A stretch of DNA of 64,000 nucleotides from Microbispora corallina (GTDB lineage Bacteria > Actinomycetota > Actinomycetes > Streptosporangiales > Streptosporangiaceae): positions 496,001 to 560,000 of the forward strand of contig NZ_BOOC01000003.1 in the NCBI RefSeq assembly GCF_016863035.1. The letters are read 5' to 3'. How positions within the stretch are numbered: the stretch's first letter is position 1; every line of letters starts with the position of its first letter. The notes beneath the pieces were generated by a model that had not been told where the DNA came from, ran no database searches, and saw only the letters and a list, made by a program, of their open reading frames with translations. A program made the translations under genes and the position numbers. This document shows, in pieces, positions 1,833-33,037 of this stretch.

Positions 1833-2297
1833 TCATGCAGTGGTGCGCGGAGCCAACTGAGAGATCCGCTGGTGCGACAGGCGGAGCGCACCGCCGGCGT
1901 CGCGGGTGGTCCACCCCTTATCGGTCAGGATGCGCGCGGCTTGGCGGACCGCGTCCCGCTCGGCCTGCTCGGCATAGGCGCGTGCGACGCGCGCTTCGGT
2001 CACGGCGGCCAGGGCGGCCGCGGCTTCCTCGTCATTGGGGGCGAGGTGGATGTTTACCGTGTGGGGCTCAGCCTGAAGCAGGTCGATGACGCAGGTGAGT
2101 GCGTTCTGTTCGGCGTCGGTCCAGGTGGCGCCTTGGGCCTGGACGGCGCGTCCCTCGGGGAGGTCGTTGACGGTGACGGTCCACTGCCTTCCGGTGCGGG
2201 TGGCGGTGGCGTGGTAGGTGGTGGACTCGACCTCGAGGTCGTCAAGGTTCTCGACGATGTCGGGTTGGTCGAGGATCGCTTCGAAGGGAGTTCGCAT
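1833..2297 (-). CDS. HicB-like antitoxin-type protein with C-terminal DNA-binding helices
   Basis: I place the start at ATG 2297 (MRTPFEAILDQPDI); an in-frame TTG lies 9 nt earlier. The first 85 residues form a beta-alpha-beta-beta module resembling the partial RNase-H fold of HicB (YHATATRTGRQWTVTVNDLP, then a DAEQNALTCVIDLL helix). The C-terminal part is helical and ends with a helix-turn-helix-like segment (WTTRDAGGALRLSHQRISQL). HicB proteins neutralise HicA mRNA interferases and repress their own operon. No HicA partner of about 60 residues is visible next to it, so it is an orphan or a general regulator. Perfect inverted repeats lie 43-70 nt upstream and may be its operator. Confidence 0.65.
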   Translation of the reverse strand: MRTPFEAILDQPDIVENLDDLEVESTTYHATATRTGRQWTVTVNDLPEGRAVQAQGATWTDAEQNALTCVIDLLQAEPHTVNIHLAPNDEEAAAALAAVTEARVARAYAEQAERDAVRQAARILTDKGWTTRDAGGALRLSHQRISQLAPRTTA

Positions 2298-16996: not shown

Positions 16997-17815
16997 TCAC
17001 GGGGACAGGCGGGCCTGGTGGGCGCGGTGCTCGGCCCTGACCAGGTCCTCCACCGCGGCCTTGATCTTCAGGAACTCCGGGGTCCGCTTGACCTCCAGCG
17101 AGCGCGGCTCCGGCAGGTCGATGGCGATGTCCTGGCTGATCCGCCCGGGGTCGCTCGACAGCACGAGCACCCGCTGACCGAGGAAGACGGCCTCCTCGAC
17201 GTCGTGGGTGACCATGACCACCGTGGAGCGCCGGGCCGGGCCGGTGGCGGCGCCGTCGGCCGCGCTCGGCACGTCCTGCCACACCTGGCGGATGAACAGC
17301 TGCATGTCCTCCTTGGTCTGCACGTCGAGCGCGCCGAACGGCTCGTCGAGCAGCAGTACCCGCGGCGCGCAGGCCAGCGCGCGGGCGATCGACACGCGCT
17401 GCTGCTGCCCGCCGGACAGGCGGCCGGGCAGGGCCCCCGCGAGGTGCGCGAGGCCCACCTCGTCGAGCAGCCACCGCACCCGCTCCTGCCGGGCGGCCCT
17501 GGGCACGCCAAGCGCCTCCAGCCCGAACGCGACGTTGCGGGCCACGTCCCGCCAGGGGAACAGGGACGCGGTCTGGAACACCAGACCCCGGTCGGGTCCG
17601 GGCCCCAGCACCTCGTGGCCGTCGAGGAGCACCCGCCCGGTCGAGGGCCGCGACAGCCCGGCGATCAGGCACAGCAGCGTCGACTTGCCGGAGCCGCTGG
17701 CGCCGACCACGCAGACGAACTCGCCGGGCGCCACCGAGACGTCCACGTCCTGGAGGACCGGCCGCCCGGGGACGAACTCCTTGCCGAGCGCCTCGACGCG
17801 CAGCCCGGCCGTCAC
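16997..17815 (-). CDS. ABC transporter ATP-binding protein (NitT/TauT family), probable guanidine uptake
   Basis: A 272-residue ATPase with Walker A GASGSGKST (about residue 42), Q-loop LVFQTASLFPW, signature LSGGQQQRVSIARAL, Walker B RVLLLDEPFGALD and switch VMVTHDVEEAVFLG. It matches TauB/SsuB/NrtD-type subunits. It energises uptake with the adjacent permease and binding protein. The last gene of the riboswitch-led operon, its GTG start overlaps the permease stop (GTGA). The frame is open further upstream, but that sequence is antisense to nothing useful and not protein-like. The substrate is inferred as guanidine from the riboswitch. Confidence 0.88.
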   Translation of the reverse strand: MTAGLRVEALGKEFVPGRPVLQDVDVSVAPGEFVCVVGASGSGKSTLLCLIAGLSRPSTGRVLLDGHEVLGPGPDRGLVFQTASLFPWRDVARNVAFGLEALGVPRAARQERVRWLLDEVGLAHLAGALPGRLSGGQQQRVSIARALACAPRVLLLDEPFGALDVQTKEDMQLFIRQVWQDVPSAADGAATGPARRSTVVMVTHDVEEAVFLGQRVLVLSSDPGRISQDIAIDLPEPRSLEVKRTPEFLKIKAAVEDLVRAEHRAHQARLSP

Positions 17816-18687
17816 CGCGTCCACCTCCCCACGCGGGTGCGCAGCAGCCGCAGCGCGACGTCGATCGTGAGCCCGATCAGCCCGATGACGACGAGGATCG
17901 CGAAGATCCGGTCGGTCTGCAGGAACCGCTGGGCCCGGGTGATCCGGTAGCCGAGCCCGGACGTGGCGGCCACCAGCTCGGCGACCACCACGAAGTTCCA
18001 GGCCGCGGCTGCGTTCACCCGCATCGCGTCGATGATCCCCGGCAGCGCGTGGGGGAGCACGACCCGCGACGCCACCCGCAGCCGCGACGCGCCGAGGGTC
18101 GCCGAGACCTCCAGCAGCCGGTGCGGCACCTGCCGCACCACGTCGGCGGTCATCAGCGTGTTGAAGAACACCACGCCCAGCACGAGCAGGGCGATCTTGG
18201 ACGGCTCCCCGATGCCCAGCCAGATGATCAGCAGCGGGATGAACGCCGAGGCGGGCAGGTAGCGCAGGATGCCGATGACGGGTTCGAGCAGCGGCTGCGC
18301 CCACCCGAGCGTCCCCATCGCGAACCCGACCGGCACGGAGATCAGCACGGCCAGGCCGAAGCCGGCCCCGATCCGGCCCAGGCTCGCCAGCAGGTCGGAC
18401 GGCAGGTCGCCGGTGCCCGCCATGTCCACCGCGGCCGACCAGACGGCCGAGGGGGACGGCAGGAACGTCGGGTCGACCATCCCGGTCGCGCTCAGCGCCC
18501 ACCACGCCGTCACCGGGCCGAGGATCGACACGGCCCGCAGGATCCAGGCCGTACGGGGGGAGACCGAGGTGGTGAGCAGCCGGATCCGGGCGGGCGGGGG
18601 GAGCGGCGGCTCGGGCGGCCCGCCCTGGACCCCGGTCTCGGCGGCCTGACGGCCCTCCTCGGCGACCATCGGCTCGGCCCGGCTCAC
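17812..18687 (-). CDS. ABC transporter permease (NitT/TauT family), probable guanidine uptake
   Basis: A 291-residue inner-membrane permease with a cytoplasmic proline-rich N-terminus of about 45 residues and about six spans. The EAA-loop region reads LEVSATLGASRLRVASRVVL followed by PHALPGIIDAMRVN, typical of BPD_transp_1 permeases of the taurine/nitrate class. GTG 18687 overlaps the binding-protein stop as GTGA, so the three transporter genes are translationally chained. Confidence 0.88.
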   Translation of the reverse strand: MSRAEPMVAEEGRQAAETGVQGGPPEPPLPPPARIRLLTTSVSPRTAWILRAVSILGPVTAWWALSATGMVDPTFLPSPSAVWSAAVDMAGTGDLPSDLLASLGRIGAGFGLAVLISVPVGFAMGTLGWAQPLLEPVIGILRYLPASAFIPLLIIWLGIGEPSKIALLVLGVVFFNTLMTADVVRQVPHRLLEVSATLGASRLRVASRVVLPHALPGIIDAMRVNAAAAWNFVVVAELVAATSGLGYRITRAQRFLQTDRIFAILVVIGLIGLTIDVALRLLRTRVGRWTR

Positions 18688-19676
18688 GGCTGCACCGCCT
18701 GGACGAACTGGGGGGCGAACAGGCCGTCGAGCGGCGGCGGCGCGTCCACCAGCTCGGACGCCACCAGGAAGTCCGAGATCTGCCGCGCGCTTGCCGTCAG
18801 GTCGCCGCCGAACGCCGCCCGGTTCTGGTCGAGCGTGAAGATCGTCGTCCCCTTGTCGTACGACTCGTAGTCGGGCACGCCCACGCCGGCCCGCTTGGCC
18901 ATGATCTCCATGGCCTCGGCCCGGTGGTCCCTGATCCACGCGATCGTGTCGAACCAGGTGTTCACCAGCCCCTGGACGGCCTTGGGGTCACGGCCGAGCA
19001 GGTCCCGCGTGACCACGAGGTGGTCGGGGATCGCGCCGGGGAAGTCGGCCGAGGTCGCGATCGCCCTGCTGCCGGGCCGCTTCAGCGCCGTCGTGGTGAA
19101 CGGCGCGAACACGCCCACGGCGTCCACCTGGCCGGCGACGAAGGCGGCCGCGGCCGCGTCGGTCGCCAGCGGCTGGAACTTCACGTCGGCCTCGGTGAGC
19201 CCGGCCTTCTTCAGCGCCAGCAGGAGCAGGTAGTGGTCGACCGTGCCCTGCTCGGCCGCCACCGTCTTGCCCTTCAGGTCGGCGAGCGAGGAGATCCCGG
19301 ACCTGGCGATGATCTGGTCGTTGCCGGTCGAGTTGTCGTTGACCAGCACGATGCTCTGCTTGGCGCCCCCGGCGACCGAGGCGAGCGTGTCGTTCAGCGT
19401 CTGGCTGTTGGCGTCGATCTTCCCGGTGGCCAGGGCGTTGAGCGAGTCGGTGTAGCTGTCGAAGTACTTGAGCTCGACGTTCACCCCGTTCGCGCGGAAC
19501 AGGCCCCGCTCCTCGGCCACCTGCCAGGGGAACCAGCCGGGCCAGGCGCTGAAGCCCAGCGTGATCGCGCCTCCGGGCGAGGCGGCCGGCGTTCTCGCCG
19601 GTGAGGCGCACCCCGCGCCCAGGGCGAGCGCGAGGACGAGCGTGAGGACGGCGGTGAGGCGACGGCGGGGCGTCAT
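18684..19676 (-). CDS. ABC transporter substrate-binding lipoprotein, probable guanidine binding
   Basis: A 330-residue lipoprotein: signal sequence RLTAVLTLVLALALGAGC with the lipobox cysteine at about residue 24. The type-2 periplasmic-binding fold of the NMT1/SsuA/TauA class follows (GFSAWPGWFPWQVAEERGLF, LATGKIDANSQTLNDTLA, then GKTVAAEQGTVDHYLLLLAL). Related binding proteins under guanidine-I riboswitches belong to this class. ATG 19676 overlaps the ureohydrolase stop (ATGA). Confidence 0.88.
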   Translation of the reverse strand: MTPRRRLTAVLTLVLALALGAGCASPARTPAASPGGAITLGFSAWPGWFPWQVAEERGLFRANGVNVELKYFDSYTDSLNALATGKIDANSQTLNDTLASVAGGAKQSIVLVNDNSTGNDQIIARSGISSLADLKGKTVAAEQGTVDHYLLLLALKKAGLTEADVKFQPLATDAAAAAFVAGQVDAVGVFAPFTTTALKRPGSRAIATSADFPGAIPDHLVVTRDLLGRDPKAVQGLVNTWFDTIAWIRDHRAEAMEIMAKRAGVGVPDYESYDKGTTIFTLDQNRAAFGGDLTASARQISDFLVASELVDAPPPLDGLFAPQFVQAVQP

Positions 19677-20797
19677 GAGGCGGCCCCCTTCTTCTTGGGG
19701 AGATGGCCCGCGCGGACCAGGCACCCGAGGGTGTCGCAGATCACGCGGGTGGCGATGAGCGAGGTGATCTCCGCGTTGTCGTACGGCGGGGAGCACTCGA
19801 CCACCTCGATCCCGGCGAGCGGCCGGGCGTCGGCGATGAGCTGGATGAACTTGAGCACCTCGCGGGGGAGGAACCCGCCGGGCTCGGGCCAGCCGGTTCC
19901 GGGGACGAAGGCCGCGTCGAGGCAGTCGACGTCGAAGGAGAGCCAGACGGCGTCGGCGCCGTCCCAGGCCACGTCGAGGGCCCGCTCGGCGGCCGTCTCG
20001 ATGCCCATCTCGACGCAGTCGGTCACCGTCATGATCGTGGTGCCGCGCTCCCTGCCGACCTTGACGCCGGGGCGGGGGGCCTGCCAGCCGCCGATGCCGA
20101 TCTGGACGAGGTTCTTGGGCGGCACGTTCGGGATGTCCGTGGCGTGGAACCACGGCGTGGTGTGCATCCGCTCGTCGAGGTCGGTCTCCTGGGTGTCGAC
20201 GTGCCGGTCGAAGTGGATGATCCCGACGTTGCCCTGCACGTGCTGGGCCACGCCGCGGACGGTCGGGTACCCGATCGAGTGGTCCCCGCCGAGCACCACG
20301 GGGAAGGCGCCGCTCTCGAAGACGTGCGCGACGCCCTTGCTGATCTGGTCGAAGGTCTTCTCGATGTTCCCGGGGATGGTGAAGATGTCGCCGAGGTCGC
20401 AGATCGTGATCGACTCCCGCAGGTCGACGCCCAGCTCGAAGCTGTAGGGGCCGTACAGCGCGGAGATCTTGCGGATGCCCTGCGGGCCGAACCGGGTGCC
20501 GGAGCGGTAGGTGGTGCCGCCGTCGAACGGCGCGCCCAGCACGGCCACGTCGTATTCCCCGCAGCGCCGCACGTCCTCGACGTACGGCGCTTTGAGGAAG
20601 GTGTTGATCCCGGCGAAGTGCGGCAGCTCGCCGCGGGAGAACGTCGGGATGCTCCGGTCGACGATCGAGTCGGCCCCCTGGAGGCCGAGCTCGAGACCCC
20701 GCCGGATCTCGCGCTCGTGCATCGTGGTGGGGAGCTCGGCCTCGCGCTCGACGGCGTAGCGGGCTTCGGGACCGTAGTTGCTGTGGAGGTGTCCCAC
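19673..20797 (-). CDS. Ureohydrolase family enzyme, probable guanidine hydrolase (annotated as agmatinase by similarity)
   Basis: A 374-residue arginase/agmatinase-fold metalloenzyme. Metal ligands are visible in GGDHS (170-174, H173), FDRHVD (D197, H199, D201) and SFDVDCLD (D289, D291). Agmatinases usually have DAHxD; the DRHVD variant, the extended N-terminus and the DGGTTYRSGTRFGPQ segment fit what I recall of the nickel-dependent guanidine hydrolase branch (Sll1077/GdmH type), which cleaves guanidine to ammonia and urea. The strongest support is context: a guanidine-I riboswitch directly upstream and a transporter downstream. Nickel chaperones usual for this branch are not in the window. 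GTG start with CAGGAG upstream. A strict agmatinase is the alternative. Confidence 0.85.
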   Translation of the reverse strand: MGHLHSNYGPEARYAVEREAELPTTMHEREIRRGLELGLQGADSIVDRSIPTFSRGELPHFAGINTFLKAPYVEDVRRCGEYDVAVLGAPFDGGTTYRSGTRFGPQGIRKISALYGPYSFELGVDLRESITICDLGDIFTIPGNIEKTFDQISKGVAHVFESGAFPVVLGGDHSIGYPTVRGVAQHVQGNVGIIHFDRHVDTQETDLDERMHTTPWFHATDIPNVPPKNLVQIGIGGWQAPRPGVKVGRERGTTIMTVTDCVEMGIETAAERALDVAWDGADAVWLSFDVDCLDAAFVPGTGWPEPGGFLPREVLKFIQLIADARPLAGIEVVECSPPYDNAEITSLIATRVICDTLGCLVRAGHLPKKKGAAS

Positions 20798-20841
20798 GGC
20801 ACTCCTGTAGGGAAGGCCTCAGCCAGGGAGGCGTGCGGTCT

Positions 20842-20865
20842 CCCGCCGCCCGTGCGGGCGGCGGC
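20842..20865 (-). terminator. Hairpin between riboswitch and ureohydrolase (likely expression platform)
   Basis: A GC-only stem (CCGCCGCCCG against CGGGCGGCGG) lies between the aptamer and the start codon. It could be the intrinsic terminator released when guanidine binds, though it lacks a U-tract. Confidence 0.5.
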
Positions 20866-20944
20866 TCTTCGACTGCGTGCGATCCCATGCCCGTGAACGC
20901 GTCCGCGGACTGTCCGCGTACGGTCGCCGGGTCCAGGGACCGCG

Positions 20945-21026
20945 GCCTCCCGGGCTTTTGTCCCGCCGTGGAGCGGCCGTCGCCGGCCGCCTGCACCTCT
21001 CGGACCAGCCGAACGGAACCCTAGGT
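20945..21026 (-). promoter_or_regulatory. Guanidine-I (ykkC) riboswitch
   Basis: Read on the minus strand, all consensus blocks of the ykkC class appear in order: CCTAGGGTTCCG (from 21025), GGCTGGTCCGAGAGGTGCAG, a variable GC-rich stem, then ACGGCGGGACAAAAGC continuing as CCGGGAG (to about 20,947). These are the nearly invariant positions that bind guanidinium. It lies about 150 nt upstream of the ureohydrolase start and in the same direction. Binding is expected to switch the operon on. Confidence 0.95.
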
Positions 21027-21032
21027 GCGCCC

Positions 21033-21047
21033 CACCGCCGGGCGGTG
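21033..21047 (-). terminator. Short hairpin after the AidB-like gene
   Basis: CACCGCC-G-GGCGGTG lies between the end of the acyl-CoA dehydrogenase gene and the riboswitch. The tiny loop makes termination uncertain. Confidence 0.35.
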
Positions 21048-21143
21048 AGTCCCCTTCATGACAGCGCTGGGCTGTTTCCTCCGGATGTCGCGGGTGTAGC
21101 CGTCCGGTGACCGCCTATTCACCGCGCCGTCGCCCGCCGGCCC

Positions 21144-22760
21144 TCATACGCCGGGCCGCCCGGCGCGCTCGATCACGGCCTCCAGGTCGAGCCCGGCGGG
21201 CAGCGTGCCGAACGCCCGCCCCCAGTCGCCCGACAGGCGGGAGGCGCAGAACGCGTCGGACACGGCGGCGGGCGCGTGCCGCACCAGCAGGGACGCCTGG
21301 AGGACCAGGGTCATCTCCTCGGCCACCCGGCGGGCGTCGGCCTCGCCCGCCGACGCGAGCCGCTTGAGCAGGCGCTCGGAGGCGTCCGCCACCCGGCGGT
21401 CGCCGGCGAGGGCCACCTCGGCGAAGAAGGCGTCCACCGCCTCCGGCTCGCGCGCCATCACCCGCATGAGGTCGAGCGCCGCCACGTTGCCCGAGCCCTC
21501 CCAGACGCCGTTCAGCGGCGACTCCCGGAACAGCCGCGGCATCTGCGACTCCTCGACGTACCCGTTGCCGCCGAGGCACTCCAGCGCCTCGGCCGCGTGG
21601 ACCGGCGCCCGCTTGCAGATCCAGTACTTGGCGGCGGCGAGCGCGGACCGCCGGAACAGGCCCTCGCCCGCGTCCCCGCGGACCGCCCGGTCGGTCGCCC
21701 CGGCCAGCCGCGTCATCAGCGCGGTCGCGGCCTCCGACTCCAGCGCGAGGTCGGCCAGCACGGCCCGCATGAGCGGCTGGTCGGCCAGCTCCCTGCCGAA
21801 TACCCTGCGGTGCCGGGCGTGGTGGAGGGCCTGGGTGAGGCCGTACCGCATGCCGGCGGCCGAGCCGATCACGCAGTCGAGCCGGGTCATGTTGACCATC
21901 TCGATGATCGTGCGGACGCCGCGGCCCTCCTCGCCGACGAGGTGGGCGACCGCGCCCTCGTACTCGACCTCGGCGGAGGCGTTCGACCTGTTGCCCAGCT
22001 TGTCCTTCAGCCGCATCAGCCGCATCGCGTTGCGGGTGCCGTCCGGCAGCACGCGGGGGAGCAGGAAGCACGACAGCCCGCCGGGGGCCTGGGCCAGCAC
22101 CAGGAACGCGTCGCACATCGGGGCCGAGTTGAACCACTTGTGCCCGGTCAGAGCGAAGGTGCCGTCCGCCAGCGGCTCGGCCCGGGTCGTGTTGGCCCGC
22201 ACGTCGGAGCCGCCCTGCTTCTCCGTCATCGCCATGCCGGCCAGCACGCCGCGCTTGTCCAGCGGCGGCCGCAGCCCGAAGTCGTACGTCCGGGAGGCCA
22301 GCAGCGGCTCCCACTCGGCCCGCAGCGCGGGGGAGTGCCGCAGCGCCGCGACGGCCGCGTACGTCATGGAGATCGGGCAGCCGTGCCCCGCCTCCACCTG
22401 TGACCAGACGTGGAACTTGGCCGCCCGGGCGACGTGCGCGCCGGGCCTGGCGGACGTCCAGGGGGCCGCGTGCAGGCCGTTCTCGACGGCGACCGACATC
22501 AGCTCGTGCCAGGCCGGGTGGAACTCGACCTCGTCGATCCGGTGGCCGTACCGGTCGTGCGTGCGCAGCACCGGCGGGTGCTCGTTGGCCAGCCGGCCCC
22601 ACTCCTGCGCCCGCGCCGAGCCCGCCAGCAGGCCGAGCTGGCGCAGCTCCCCCACGGCCCAGTCGGCGCCCTCCCTGGCCAGGCCCTCCAGCAGCGCGGG
22701 GTCGGCGGCCACGTCGTGGCCGGTCAGCGGGGGCACCTGGTTGGTCACGTCGTGGGTCAC
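21144..22760 (-). CDS. AidB-like acyl-CoA dehydrogenase family flavoprotein
   Basis: This 538-residue protein matches AidB rather than fatty-acid ACADs by its length, its N-terminal tetramer region (HDVAADPALLEGLAREGADW) and the motif GMAMTEKQGGSDVRANTTRA with GHKWFNSAPMCDAFLVLAQA. FAD contacts and the C-terminal ALECLGGNGYVEESQMPRLF block are conserved, as is the AidB-type tail (RHAPAAVSDAFCASRLSGDW). E. coli AidB is induced by alkylation and binds DNA; the reaction of most homologues is unknown. GTG start with AGGAGGA upstream. It is transcribed toward but separate from the guanidine operon. Confidence 0.9.
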   Translation of the reverse strand: MTHDVTNQVPPLTGHDVAADPALLEGLAREGADWAVGELRQLGLLAGSARAQEWGRLANEHPPVLRTHDRYGHRIDEVEFHPAWHELMSVAVENGLHAAPWTSARPGAHVARAAKFHVWSQVEAGHGCPISMTYAAVAALRHSPALRAEWEPLLASRTYDFGLRPPLDKRGVLAGMAMTEKQGGSDVRANTTRAEPLADGTFALTGHKWFNSAPMCDAFLVLAQAPGGLSCFLLPRVLPDGTRNAMRLMRLKDKLGNRSNASAEVEYEGAVAHLVGEEGRGVRTIIEMVNMTRLDCVIGSAAGMRYGLTQALHHARHRRVFGRELADQPLMRAVLADLALESEAATALMTRLAGATDRAVRGDAGEGLFRRSALAAAKYWICKRAPVHAAEALECLGGNGYVEESQMPRLFRESPLNGVWEGSGNVAALDLMRVMAREPEAVDAFFAEVALAGDRRVADASERLLKRLASAGEADARRVAEEMTLVLQASLLVRHAPAAVSDAFCASRLSGDWGRAFGTLPAGLDLEAVIERAGRPGV

Positions 22761-31615: not shown

Positions 31616-31654
31616 TCCAAGCCCCCCGGGGAGCGGCGCCGCTCGGATAAAGTG

Positions 31655-31746
31655 AGACGTCGCGACTGGCGCTGACGTGCTCTCGGGCGCGTCGCTAGGT
31701 GGGGCACCACCGGGGAGCGAAAACGCGGAGGCCGTGCGCCTGGGTC
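31655..31746 (+). promoter_or_regulatory. ZTP riboswitch (pfl motif) upstream of glyA
   Basis: The conserved blocks appear in order: GCGACTGGCG (from 31,662), a variable stem, GGTGGGGCACCACCGGGGAG (pseudoknot-forming core), then GCCGTGCGCCTGGGTC. This is the pfl/ZTP consensus that senses ZTP or ZMP, signalling shortage of 10-formyl-tetrahydrofolate. A TAAAGT -10-like box at 31,648-31,653 would start the RNA here. The ribosome-binding site of glyA follows within 20 nt, which favours translational control. Confidence 0.92.
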
Positions 31747-31777
31747 GCCGCCGCCGTCGATGGAGAAGGAAGGCGCC

Positions 31778-33037
31778 ATGACCGAGAAATCGCTGACCGA
31801 CGTCGATCCCCAGATCGCCGCGCTGATCAGGGCGGAGGAGCGGCGCCAGGCCGACACCGTCAAGCTGATCGCCTCGGAGAACTACGTCTCCCGCGCCGTC
31901 CTGGAGGCGACCGGGACGGTCCTGACGAACAAGTACTCCGAGGGCTACCCGGGCAAGCGGTACTACGAGGGCCAGCAGGTCATCGACCAGATCGAGACCC
32001 TCGCGATCGAGCGGGCCAAGTCCGTGTTCGGGGTGGGCCACGCCAACGTCCAGCCGTACTCGGGCTCGCCCGCGAACCTCGCCGTCTACCTGGCGTTCCT
32101 CAGCCCGGGCGACACCGTGCTCGGCATGGGCCTGCCGTTCGGCGGCCACCTCACCCACGGCTGGTCGGTCTCGGCCACCGGCAAGTGGTTCAACGCCGTC
32201 CGGTACGGCGTGCGCAAGGACACCGGCCGCATCGACATGGACGAGGTCCGTTCGCTCGCCCTGGAGCACCGGCCCAAGCTGATCTTCTGCGGCGGCACGG
32301 CGATCCCGCGGACCATCGACTTCCCGGCGTTCGCGGAGATCGCCCGGGAGGTCGGGGCCGTGCTCGCGGCCGACATCGCCCACATCGCCGGCCTCGTGGC
32401 GGGCGGCGCGCACCCGTCGCCCGTGGGCCACGCCGACGTGATCTCCACGACGACCCACAAGACGCTGCGCGGTCCTCGCGGCGCCATGCTCATGGCCACG
32501 TCGGACGAGCACGCGACGGCGCTCAACAAGGCGGTCTTCCCGGGCCTGCAGGGCGGGCCGCACAACCACACCACGGCCGCGATCGCGGTGGCGCTGCACG
32601 AGGCCGCCCAGCCGGAGTTCCGGGAGTACGCCGCCCAGATCGTGAAGAACGCCCGGGCGCTCGCCGAGGAGCTGCTGGCCCGCGGCTTCGACCTGGTCTC
32701 CGGCGGCACCGACAACCACCTGATCCTGATGGACCTGACGTCCAAGGGCGTCGGGGGCAAGCCGGCCGCCCAGGCACTCGACCGGGCGGGGCTGGAGACC
32801 AACTACAACGCCGTGCCGTTCGACCCGCGCAAGCCGTTCGACCCCTCCGGCATCCGGATCGGCACGCCGTCGGTCACCTCGCGCGGGATGGGCGAGGCCG
32901 AGATGCGGCAGATCGGCGCCTGGATCGACGAGGTCGTCACCGCGGTCGCGAAGGGCGACGCGGAGGACGTGATCGGCCGCGTGCACCAGGAGGTCACCGA
33001 GCTGACCGGGAAGTTCCCGGCGCCCGGCCTGTCCTGA
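31778..33037 (+). CDS. glyA: Serine hydroxymethyltransferase
   Basis: A 419-residue PLP enzyme. Family marks are LIASENYVSRAVLEATGTVL, NKYSEGYPGKRYYEG, and the PLP lysine in STTTHKTLRGPRGAM (near residue 228), then GGPHNHTTAAIAVALHEA. It converts serine and tetrahydrofolate to glycine and 5,10-methylene-tetrahydrofolate, the main one-carbon source. The upstream riboswitch ties it to folate/purine status. ATG 31778 is preceded by AGAAGGAAGG. Confidence 0.96.
   Translation: MTEKSLTDVDPQIAALIRAEERRQADTVKLIASENYVSRAVLEATGTVLTNKYSEGYPGKRYYEGQQVIDQIETLAIERAKSVFGVGHANVQPYSGSPANLAVYLAFLSPGDTVLGMGLPFGGHLTHGWSVSATGKWFNAVRYGVRKDTGRIDMDEVRSLALEHRPKLIFCGGTAIPRTIDFPAFAEIAREVGAVLAADIAHIAGLVAGGAHPSPVGHADVISTTTHKTLRGPRGAMLMATSDEHATALNKAVFPGLQGGPHNHTTAAIAVALHEAAQPEFREYAAQIVKNARALAEELLARGFDLVSGGTDNHLILMDLTSKGVGGKPAAQALDRAGLETNYNAVPFDPRKPFDPSGIRIGTPSVTSRGMGEAEMRQIGAWIDEVVTAVAKGDAEDVIGRVHQEVTELTGKFPAPGLS

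Follow-up and report, generated by a model that had tools for sequence, protein, structure and literature searches.

The stretch of DNA analysed here, 64,000 nucleotides from Microbispora corallina (the window), carries on its minus strand, in this order, a guanidine-I aptamer, a spacer, a ureohydrolase gene, and genes for an SsuA-type substrate-binding protein, a permease and an ATPase. The features are as follows, in the order in which the minus strand is read:

20945..21035 (-): guanidine-I (ykkC subtype 1) aptamer; RF00442, 72.3 bits, E 6.8e-11; 91.6 bits with R1, a model built for this analysis
20945..20956 (-): helix A, left arm (AGCCCGGGAGGC), made up of the P3 3′ strand and the conserved GGGAG; partner in the leader's minimum-energy fold: 20832-20821
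20843..20864 (-): within the long spacer, a strong GC hairpin
20821..20832 (-): helix A, right arm (GCCTCCCTGGCT), whose GCCTC (20832-20828) also serves as left arm in helix B
20816..20820 (-): helix B, right arm (GAGGC), which shares positions with the left arm of helix C; assignment based on resemblance to the sister genera's helix B
20798..20818 (-): helix C hairpin, GGCCTTCC / GGAGTGCC, which holds the Shine-Dalgarno; from predicted folds, arms 20818-20811 with 20805-20798
20802..20806 (-): Shine-Dalgarno AGGAG of the guanidinase gene
19673..20797 (-): gene of a putative GdmH-type guanidinase, 374 aa, GTG start; from identity, residues and tree
18684..19676 (-): ABC substrate-binding protein of the SsuA family; TIGR01728, 216.3 bits (cut-off 163.5); PF13379/PF09084
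17812..18939 (-): ABC transporter permease ORF; PF00528; coordinates are those of the ORF
16997..17824 (-): ABC transporter ATPase of the TauB/NrtD type; PF00005; an open frame within ORF 16997-18505

Between the end of the aptamer at 20945 and the start codon at 20797 lie 147 nt, close to the distance of about 150 nt that an earlier note on this DNA had estimated. Of the bounds given there for riboswitch and gene, the lower one at 19673 stands, but the upper one at 21026 falls short, as the aptamer begins 9 nt further 5′, at 21035. The likely ATG of the SsuA-type gene (19676-19674) and the guanidinase stop codon share letters (ATGA). Elsewhere in the window, a ZMP/ZTP riboswitch at 31652-31752 on the plus strand (41.0 bits, cut-off 39) lies directly 5′ of a serine hydroxymethyltransferase gene (31760-33037, plus strand, 583 bits), an ordinary pair.

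The earlier note had recognized the conserved ykkC blocks on the minus strand as a guanidine-I riboswitch, and the covariance search agrees. A cmscan run over the whole window matched RF00442 at 21035-20945 (-), across the full length of the model (1-107), with 72.3 bits (E 6.8e-11; gathering score 63). With the stricter filters of an Infernal search, this class has one match in the 8.36-Mb genome, and Guanidine-III has no match genome-wide; the searches for Guanidine-II and -IV covered the window. Model R1 was built from 37 aligned aptamers chosen by a tolerant pattern of conserved blocks and includes the window aptamer, so its score of 91.6 bits is not independent. In the window aptamer, only a short CCG-UUC-GG loop (within 21016-21005) is left of P1b. 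Most conserved nucleotides are common to the ykkC subtypes, according to the accessible text of PMC7266159 and PMC5912903, and one could therefore imagine that this RNA is a subtype 2 variant with another ligand. We give this next to no weight, as the window RNA has CACGG and CCCGGGAG, both invariant in the 37 pattern-picked aptamers, and as six subtype-2d-like RNAs from related bacteria reach only 33-45 bits, below the cut-off of 63. Judged against the 37 aligned aptamers and the subtype-2d-like kin rather than against published consensus drawings, the conserved letters are those of subtype 1 rather than subtype 2. By analogy with characterized relatives, the guanidine-I aptamer would bind guanidine and turn the operon on.

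The six subtype-2d-like RNAs (L094, L095, L096, L097, L098 and L101, position ~1501-1643) are sub-threshold Guanidine-I relatives with altered pocket letters. By eye, the ORFs 3′ of L094, L095, L097 and L101 are EamA-like and that of L096 is TauE-like; RNAs and ORFs of these five loci appear to agree with the orphan ykkC subtype 2d. L094-L096 each carry a UCAGG in the P1b loop and, before P3, a complementary CCUGA, which may point to a loop contact. More leaders of this kind (GCCCGGAGG), from another family (f38) of the same class, lie 5′ of ORFs that look EamA-like by eye (L125, L126, L131, L133 and L135). The subtype 2d riboswitch, as far as the available portions of PMC7266159 and PMC5912903 describe it, shares its scaffold with the window RNA and has probable examples in the same family and order; however, its pocket letters differ, and its EamA/TauE genes are absent from the window arrangement. 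At yet another locus (L108, in genome G125), a strong Guanidine-I match of 84.4 bits (~1987-2088, minus strand) precedes a small unknown ORF and, by eye, a 2-oxoglutarate/Fe(II) dioxygenase-like ORF, for which the methylguanidine dioxygenase operon described in the accessible part of PMC12508155 offers a comparison.

The ureohydrolase is almost certainly a guanidine-splitting enzyme of the GdmH type, to judge from its sequence. The ORF matches the Pfam Arginase family at 270.6 bits, and the earlier note had expected general annotation to call it an agmatinase. This was partly right: NF002564 and TIGR01230 are its best NCBIfam matches, but both fall under their curated cut-offs (212/302 and 167.4/174.3 bits). 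In a phmmer search against solved structures, the best scores went to the Nitrospira inopinata guanidinase (9fek, 734.9 bits) and Synechocystis GdmH (7esr/7oi1, 574.3 bits), the next being proclavaminate amidinohydrolase (185.8 bits). Identity is 84% (309/367) to 9FEK and 68% (242/358) to 7ESR, as against 32-39% to six other ureohydrolases (three solved, three paralogues from the same genome); the closest named relatives are from three Microbispora species (96-98%). In the N. inopinata enzyme, the metal ligands are H182, D207, H209, D211, D299 and D301 and the substrate residues Thr105, His222, Trp313 and Glu344, the Thr and Trp fixing guanidine specificity, as stated in the accessible text of PMC11410670. 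The window enzyme keeps all six ligands and all four substrate residues (T96, H212, W303 and E334). Its DRHVD motif (residues 197-201), in which the earlier note saw weak support, carries more weight than that: 79 of the 80 relatives' translations and both solved guanidinases have it; the six comparators all lack it and carry DAH[ASL]D instead. The frame of the one relative without it (L014) stops before the motif position. An exact TGWPEPGG occurs in 78/80 relatives and GTTYRxGTRFGP in 80/80.

The earlier note had also proposed placing the enzyme in a tree with GdmH-type enzymes. The resulting 89-row tree has a branch with 100/100 support: on one side are the window enzyme, the 80 relatives and the two characterized guanidinases, on the other guanidinobutyrase, guanidinopropionase, proclavaminate amidinohydrolase and the three own-genome paralogues. 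The rows include no true agmatinase of known activity, and the length of the outgroup branches drew a warning from the program. It is conceivable that the riboswitch is real and that an agmatinase, or a hydrolase of some other guanidino compound, chances to sit in its operon. The NCBIfam matches lean that way, as does the very minor agmatine activity reported for the N. inopinata guanidinase in the accessible text of PMC11410670. However, the sub-cut-off scores of both agmatinase models, the four guanidinase-type substrate residues, the gap in identity and the fully supported clade make this highly unlikely. Clade, ten residues and identity thus favour guanidine as the likely substrate, as the earlier note had suggested, and the window enzyme would hydrolyse it in a nickel-dependent manner, as its characterized relatives do.

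Two further observations concern the enzyme family. The GdmH frame has an internal stop, from a broken gene or a sequencing error, in L014 (Sphaerisporangium album) and in G143:C60:100766-101881, which perhaps come from one and the same genome. Comammox-type guanidinases (the Nitrospirota rows among L058-L085) form one group (100/100) and share 83-85% identity with the Microbispora enzyme. This is closer than the phyla suggest, and gene transfer is likely, although support for the deep branching is weak.

Riboswitch and gene also occur together in relatives. Model R1 gave 62 matches in the 80 relatives' loci, 61 of them upstream on the strand of the gene and one (L080) on the opposite strand. 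The aptamer lies at most 250 nt from the gene in 50/80 relatives; in the Nitrospira loci with a match on the gene's strand, it lies ~1.7 kb upstream. Eighteen of the 80 loci, including three of Lentzea and several of Nitrospira, have no aptamer match with R1, and the eight of these also searched with Rfam gave none either. An enzyme match at E <= 1e-150 was found in 29 of 150 genomes of the family. An RF00442 match adjoins the gene in all 25 family genomes with a gene at least 85% identical, three of these matches (G064, G065 and G069) being below the Rfam cut-off, and in none of the four with a gene at 63-67% identity. These four (L104-L107) represent a second GdmH group, with no Guanidine-I match alongside and with all ten metal and substrate residues kept.

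The SsuA-family protein is probably a component of a guanidine importer, a substrate suggested by its context; its best solved relative is a sulphonate-binding protein (68 bits). A tblastn survey of the 80 loci with six query proteins, some loci being cut by contig ends, found a substrate-binding gene of the window type near GdmH in 40/80 (38 downstream, 2 upstream), an APC-permease match in 23/80 (five on the opposite strand, some weak) and neither transporter type in 17/80. Urease is encoded elsewhere in the Microbispora genome, and the genome's hypA belongs to a hydrogenase-type hyp set away from the guanidinase locus. No nickel chaperone gene was found among the eight proteins scanned (the enzyme and seven neighbours), and the genome's own HypA, used as query, had no match in the 80 relatives' loci, although a single query can miss such genes.

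Operons of this kind have precedents. One is the sll1077 (GdmH) operon of Synechocystis PCC 6803 with its guanidine-I riboswitch, treated by Wang 2021 (PMC8390497) and reportedly by Funck 2022. Wang 2021 showed that Sll1077 degrades guanidine; according to its accessible text, guanidine riboswitches widely control Sll1077 and analogous enzymes, whose operons often include hypA, hypB, SsuA, TM_PBP2 and NrtD/SsuB genes. The sll1077 operon shares with the window the riboswitch class, the enzyme clade (68% identity) and the SsuA/TM_PBP2/NrtD-type genes. However, it contains nickel accessory genes, whereas neither hypA nor hypB was found among the neighbours scanned at the window locus. We do not count hypA/hypB as defining the enzyme, because the comammox loci also lack them in the available portion of PMC11410670. 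That source (Palatinszky 2024) describes the N. inopinata guanidinase (9FEK), which has, besides its 84% identity, the same metal and substrate residues and the same riboswitch class as the window; in both organisms, as far as the accessible text goes, no chaperone genes adjoin the guanidinase. The arrangements differ: in N. inopinata the riboswitch precedes an APC permease, whereas in the window it lies directly before the enzyme and an ABC transporter follows. As such operons have already been described by Wang 2021 and Palatinszky 2024, within what could be consulted of both, the system is a known one.

Taken together, the locus is very probably a Microbispora operon for guanidine use, combining a guanidine-I riboswitch with a nickel-dependent guanidinase of the GdmH type and an ABC importer. 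The aptamer match, the clade and residues of the enzyme, the transporter genes, the urease gene and the co-occurrence in relatives support it directly; guanidine as ligand and substrate, nickel, the ON direction and the substrate of the importer are taken from characterized relatives. Guanidine would be imported, bind the aptamer and stabilize P3, which would turn the operon on; the guanidinase would convert guanidine into urea and ammonium, and the urease encoded elsewhere would complete the pathway.

How the aptamer acts on the gene is less clear. We defined three helices in the leaders of 46 relatives whose spacers measure 44-61 nt from GGGAG, leaving aside the window, three other Microbispora and L040, with spacers of 114-149 nt. 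Helix A runs from the aptamer's GGGAG, or from just past it, into the spacer; helix B uses the right arm of A; and helix C uses the right arm of B and covers the Shine-Dalgarno region. The stem scores of A, B and C were 19.3, 16.8 and 12.8, against 15.3, 8.4 and 6.5 in dinucleotide shuffles, under a geometry set after inspection of the same, related leaders. The z values of the means were 9.0, 10.3 and 7.9 with relatedness ignored, and the summed score reached p <= 0.05 in 30/46 leaders. In the distant leaders L057, L061 and L082, A and B are built from different letters, as selection on pairing predicts. The outcome was mixed in a held-out set of 23 leaders read, 16 of them with spacers of at most 75 nt: 5/16 reached p <= 0.05 (z 3.5, 3.0 and 1.9), and among the five are a leader with a U-run terminator (L086) and a subtype-2d-like RNA (L126). 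A MAFFT alignment of the leaders puts the helices of different families out of register, making it unsuitable for column-wise covariation counts.

The four Microbispora leaders examined have changes of their own. The spacer from GGGAG measures 149 nt in the window, 147 nt in M. oryzae and 117-118 nt in two other Microbispora species; in the sister genera Acrocarpospora, Herbidospora and Sphaerisporangium it measures 50-54 nt, ~95 nt less than in the window. In all four, P1b consists of just a few nucleotides. The minimum-energy fold of the window leader contains A and C and is more stable than 200/200 shuffles (z -4.93); helix B is absent from its predicted folds and was assigned by likeness, the leaders of the three sister genera having a module like the window's A/B. 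Helix A is paired across the insert in the window and in L006; it is not folded in the other two (L007 and L008), in which the sequence 5′ of the gene also differs.

Three mutually exclusive helices that exceed shuffles in short-spacer leaders, the last over the Shine-Dalgarno, suggest a translational relay. An alternation of A and B is likely in several families; we are less sure of helix C there. Without guanidine, helix A would capture the P3 strand and leave C free to hide the Shine-Dalgarno; with guanidine, helix B would form and open C. Such a relay of helices, in place of a classical terminator, is tentative and lies outside our confidence in the operon. In its full form, the proposal is that the actinomycete guanidine-I riboswitch before guanidinase is a translational switch, in which a three-helix relay, preserved in several families by compensating changes, transmits P3 folding to the Shine-Dalgarno, and that Microbispora keeps this relay despite an insert of ~95 nt between aptamer and relay and a P1b shrunk to a short loop. 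We consider this doubtful. Helix A includes at least three letters of GGGAG in 24/46 leaders, one or two in 3 and none in 19, so its coupling to P3 and the aptamer is not universal; this count, together with the two of four Microbispora without a folded A, keeps our estimate low.

It is also possible, with a chance not far from even, that transcription ends prematurely at helix A, through a GC-rich terminator without a U-tract or with the help of Rho, so that the switch follows the classical guanidine-I design and does not act on translation. Helix A occupies the place of the classical terminator, and L066 and L086 have a U-run there. The Shine-Dalgarno access test was flat as well, which also counts against the relay: under equilibrium folding, mean access with and without the P3 strand was 0.34 and 0.33 (n=51), with shifts above 0.2 upward in five leaders and downward in four of the 51, and values of 0.32 and 0.33 in the window. 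Duplexes between the P3 strand and the spacer gave a mean z of -0.36 in 51 leaders, a weak result that we do not use as support, GC-rich shuffles pairing equally well. The leaders in this duplex test and in the first folds (including L066) comprised some whose spacers extended into coding sequence or ended too early, those of Microbispora being correct; corrected start codons were used for Shine-Dalgarno access, shuffle scores and the GGGAG count. The accessible text of PMC11410670 and PMC12186494 presents guanidine-I as an ON switch of transcription. A translational guanidine-I platform was not reported in the literature searched, which included the available part of PMC3766115 and left subscription papers largely outside, so the absence of such a report is unproven. 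On the other side, no U-tract terminator was found in the window leader (20780-21200), a weak test as 0.1 is expected in shuffles, and helix C over the Shine-Dalgarno exceeds shuffles. A promoter scan for sigma-70-like sites found none.

From a biological perspective, should the translational relay be true, high-GC bacteria, in which U-tract terminators are rare, would possess a second mode of guanidine-I action. The operon reading corrects an agmatinase annotation to guanidinase at this locus and, by sequence identity and riboswitch, probably in many actinomycetes. Soil bacteria of these genera would then be likely to use free guanidine as a nitrogen source.
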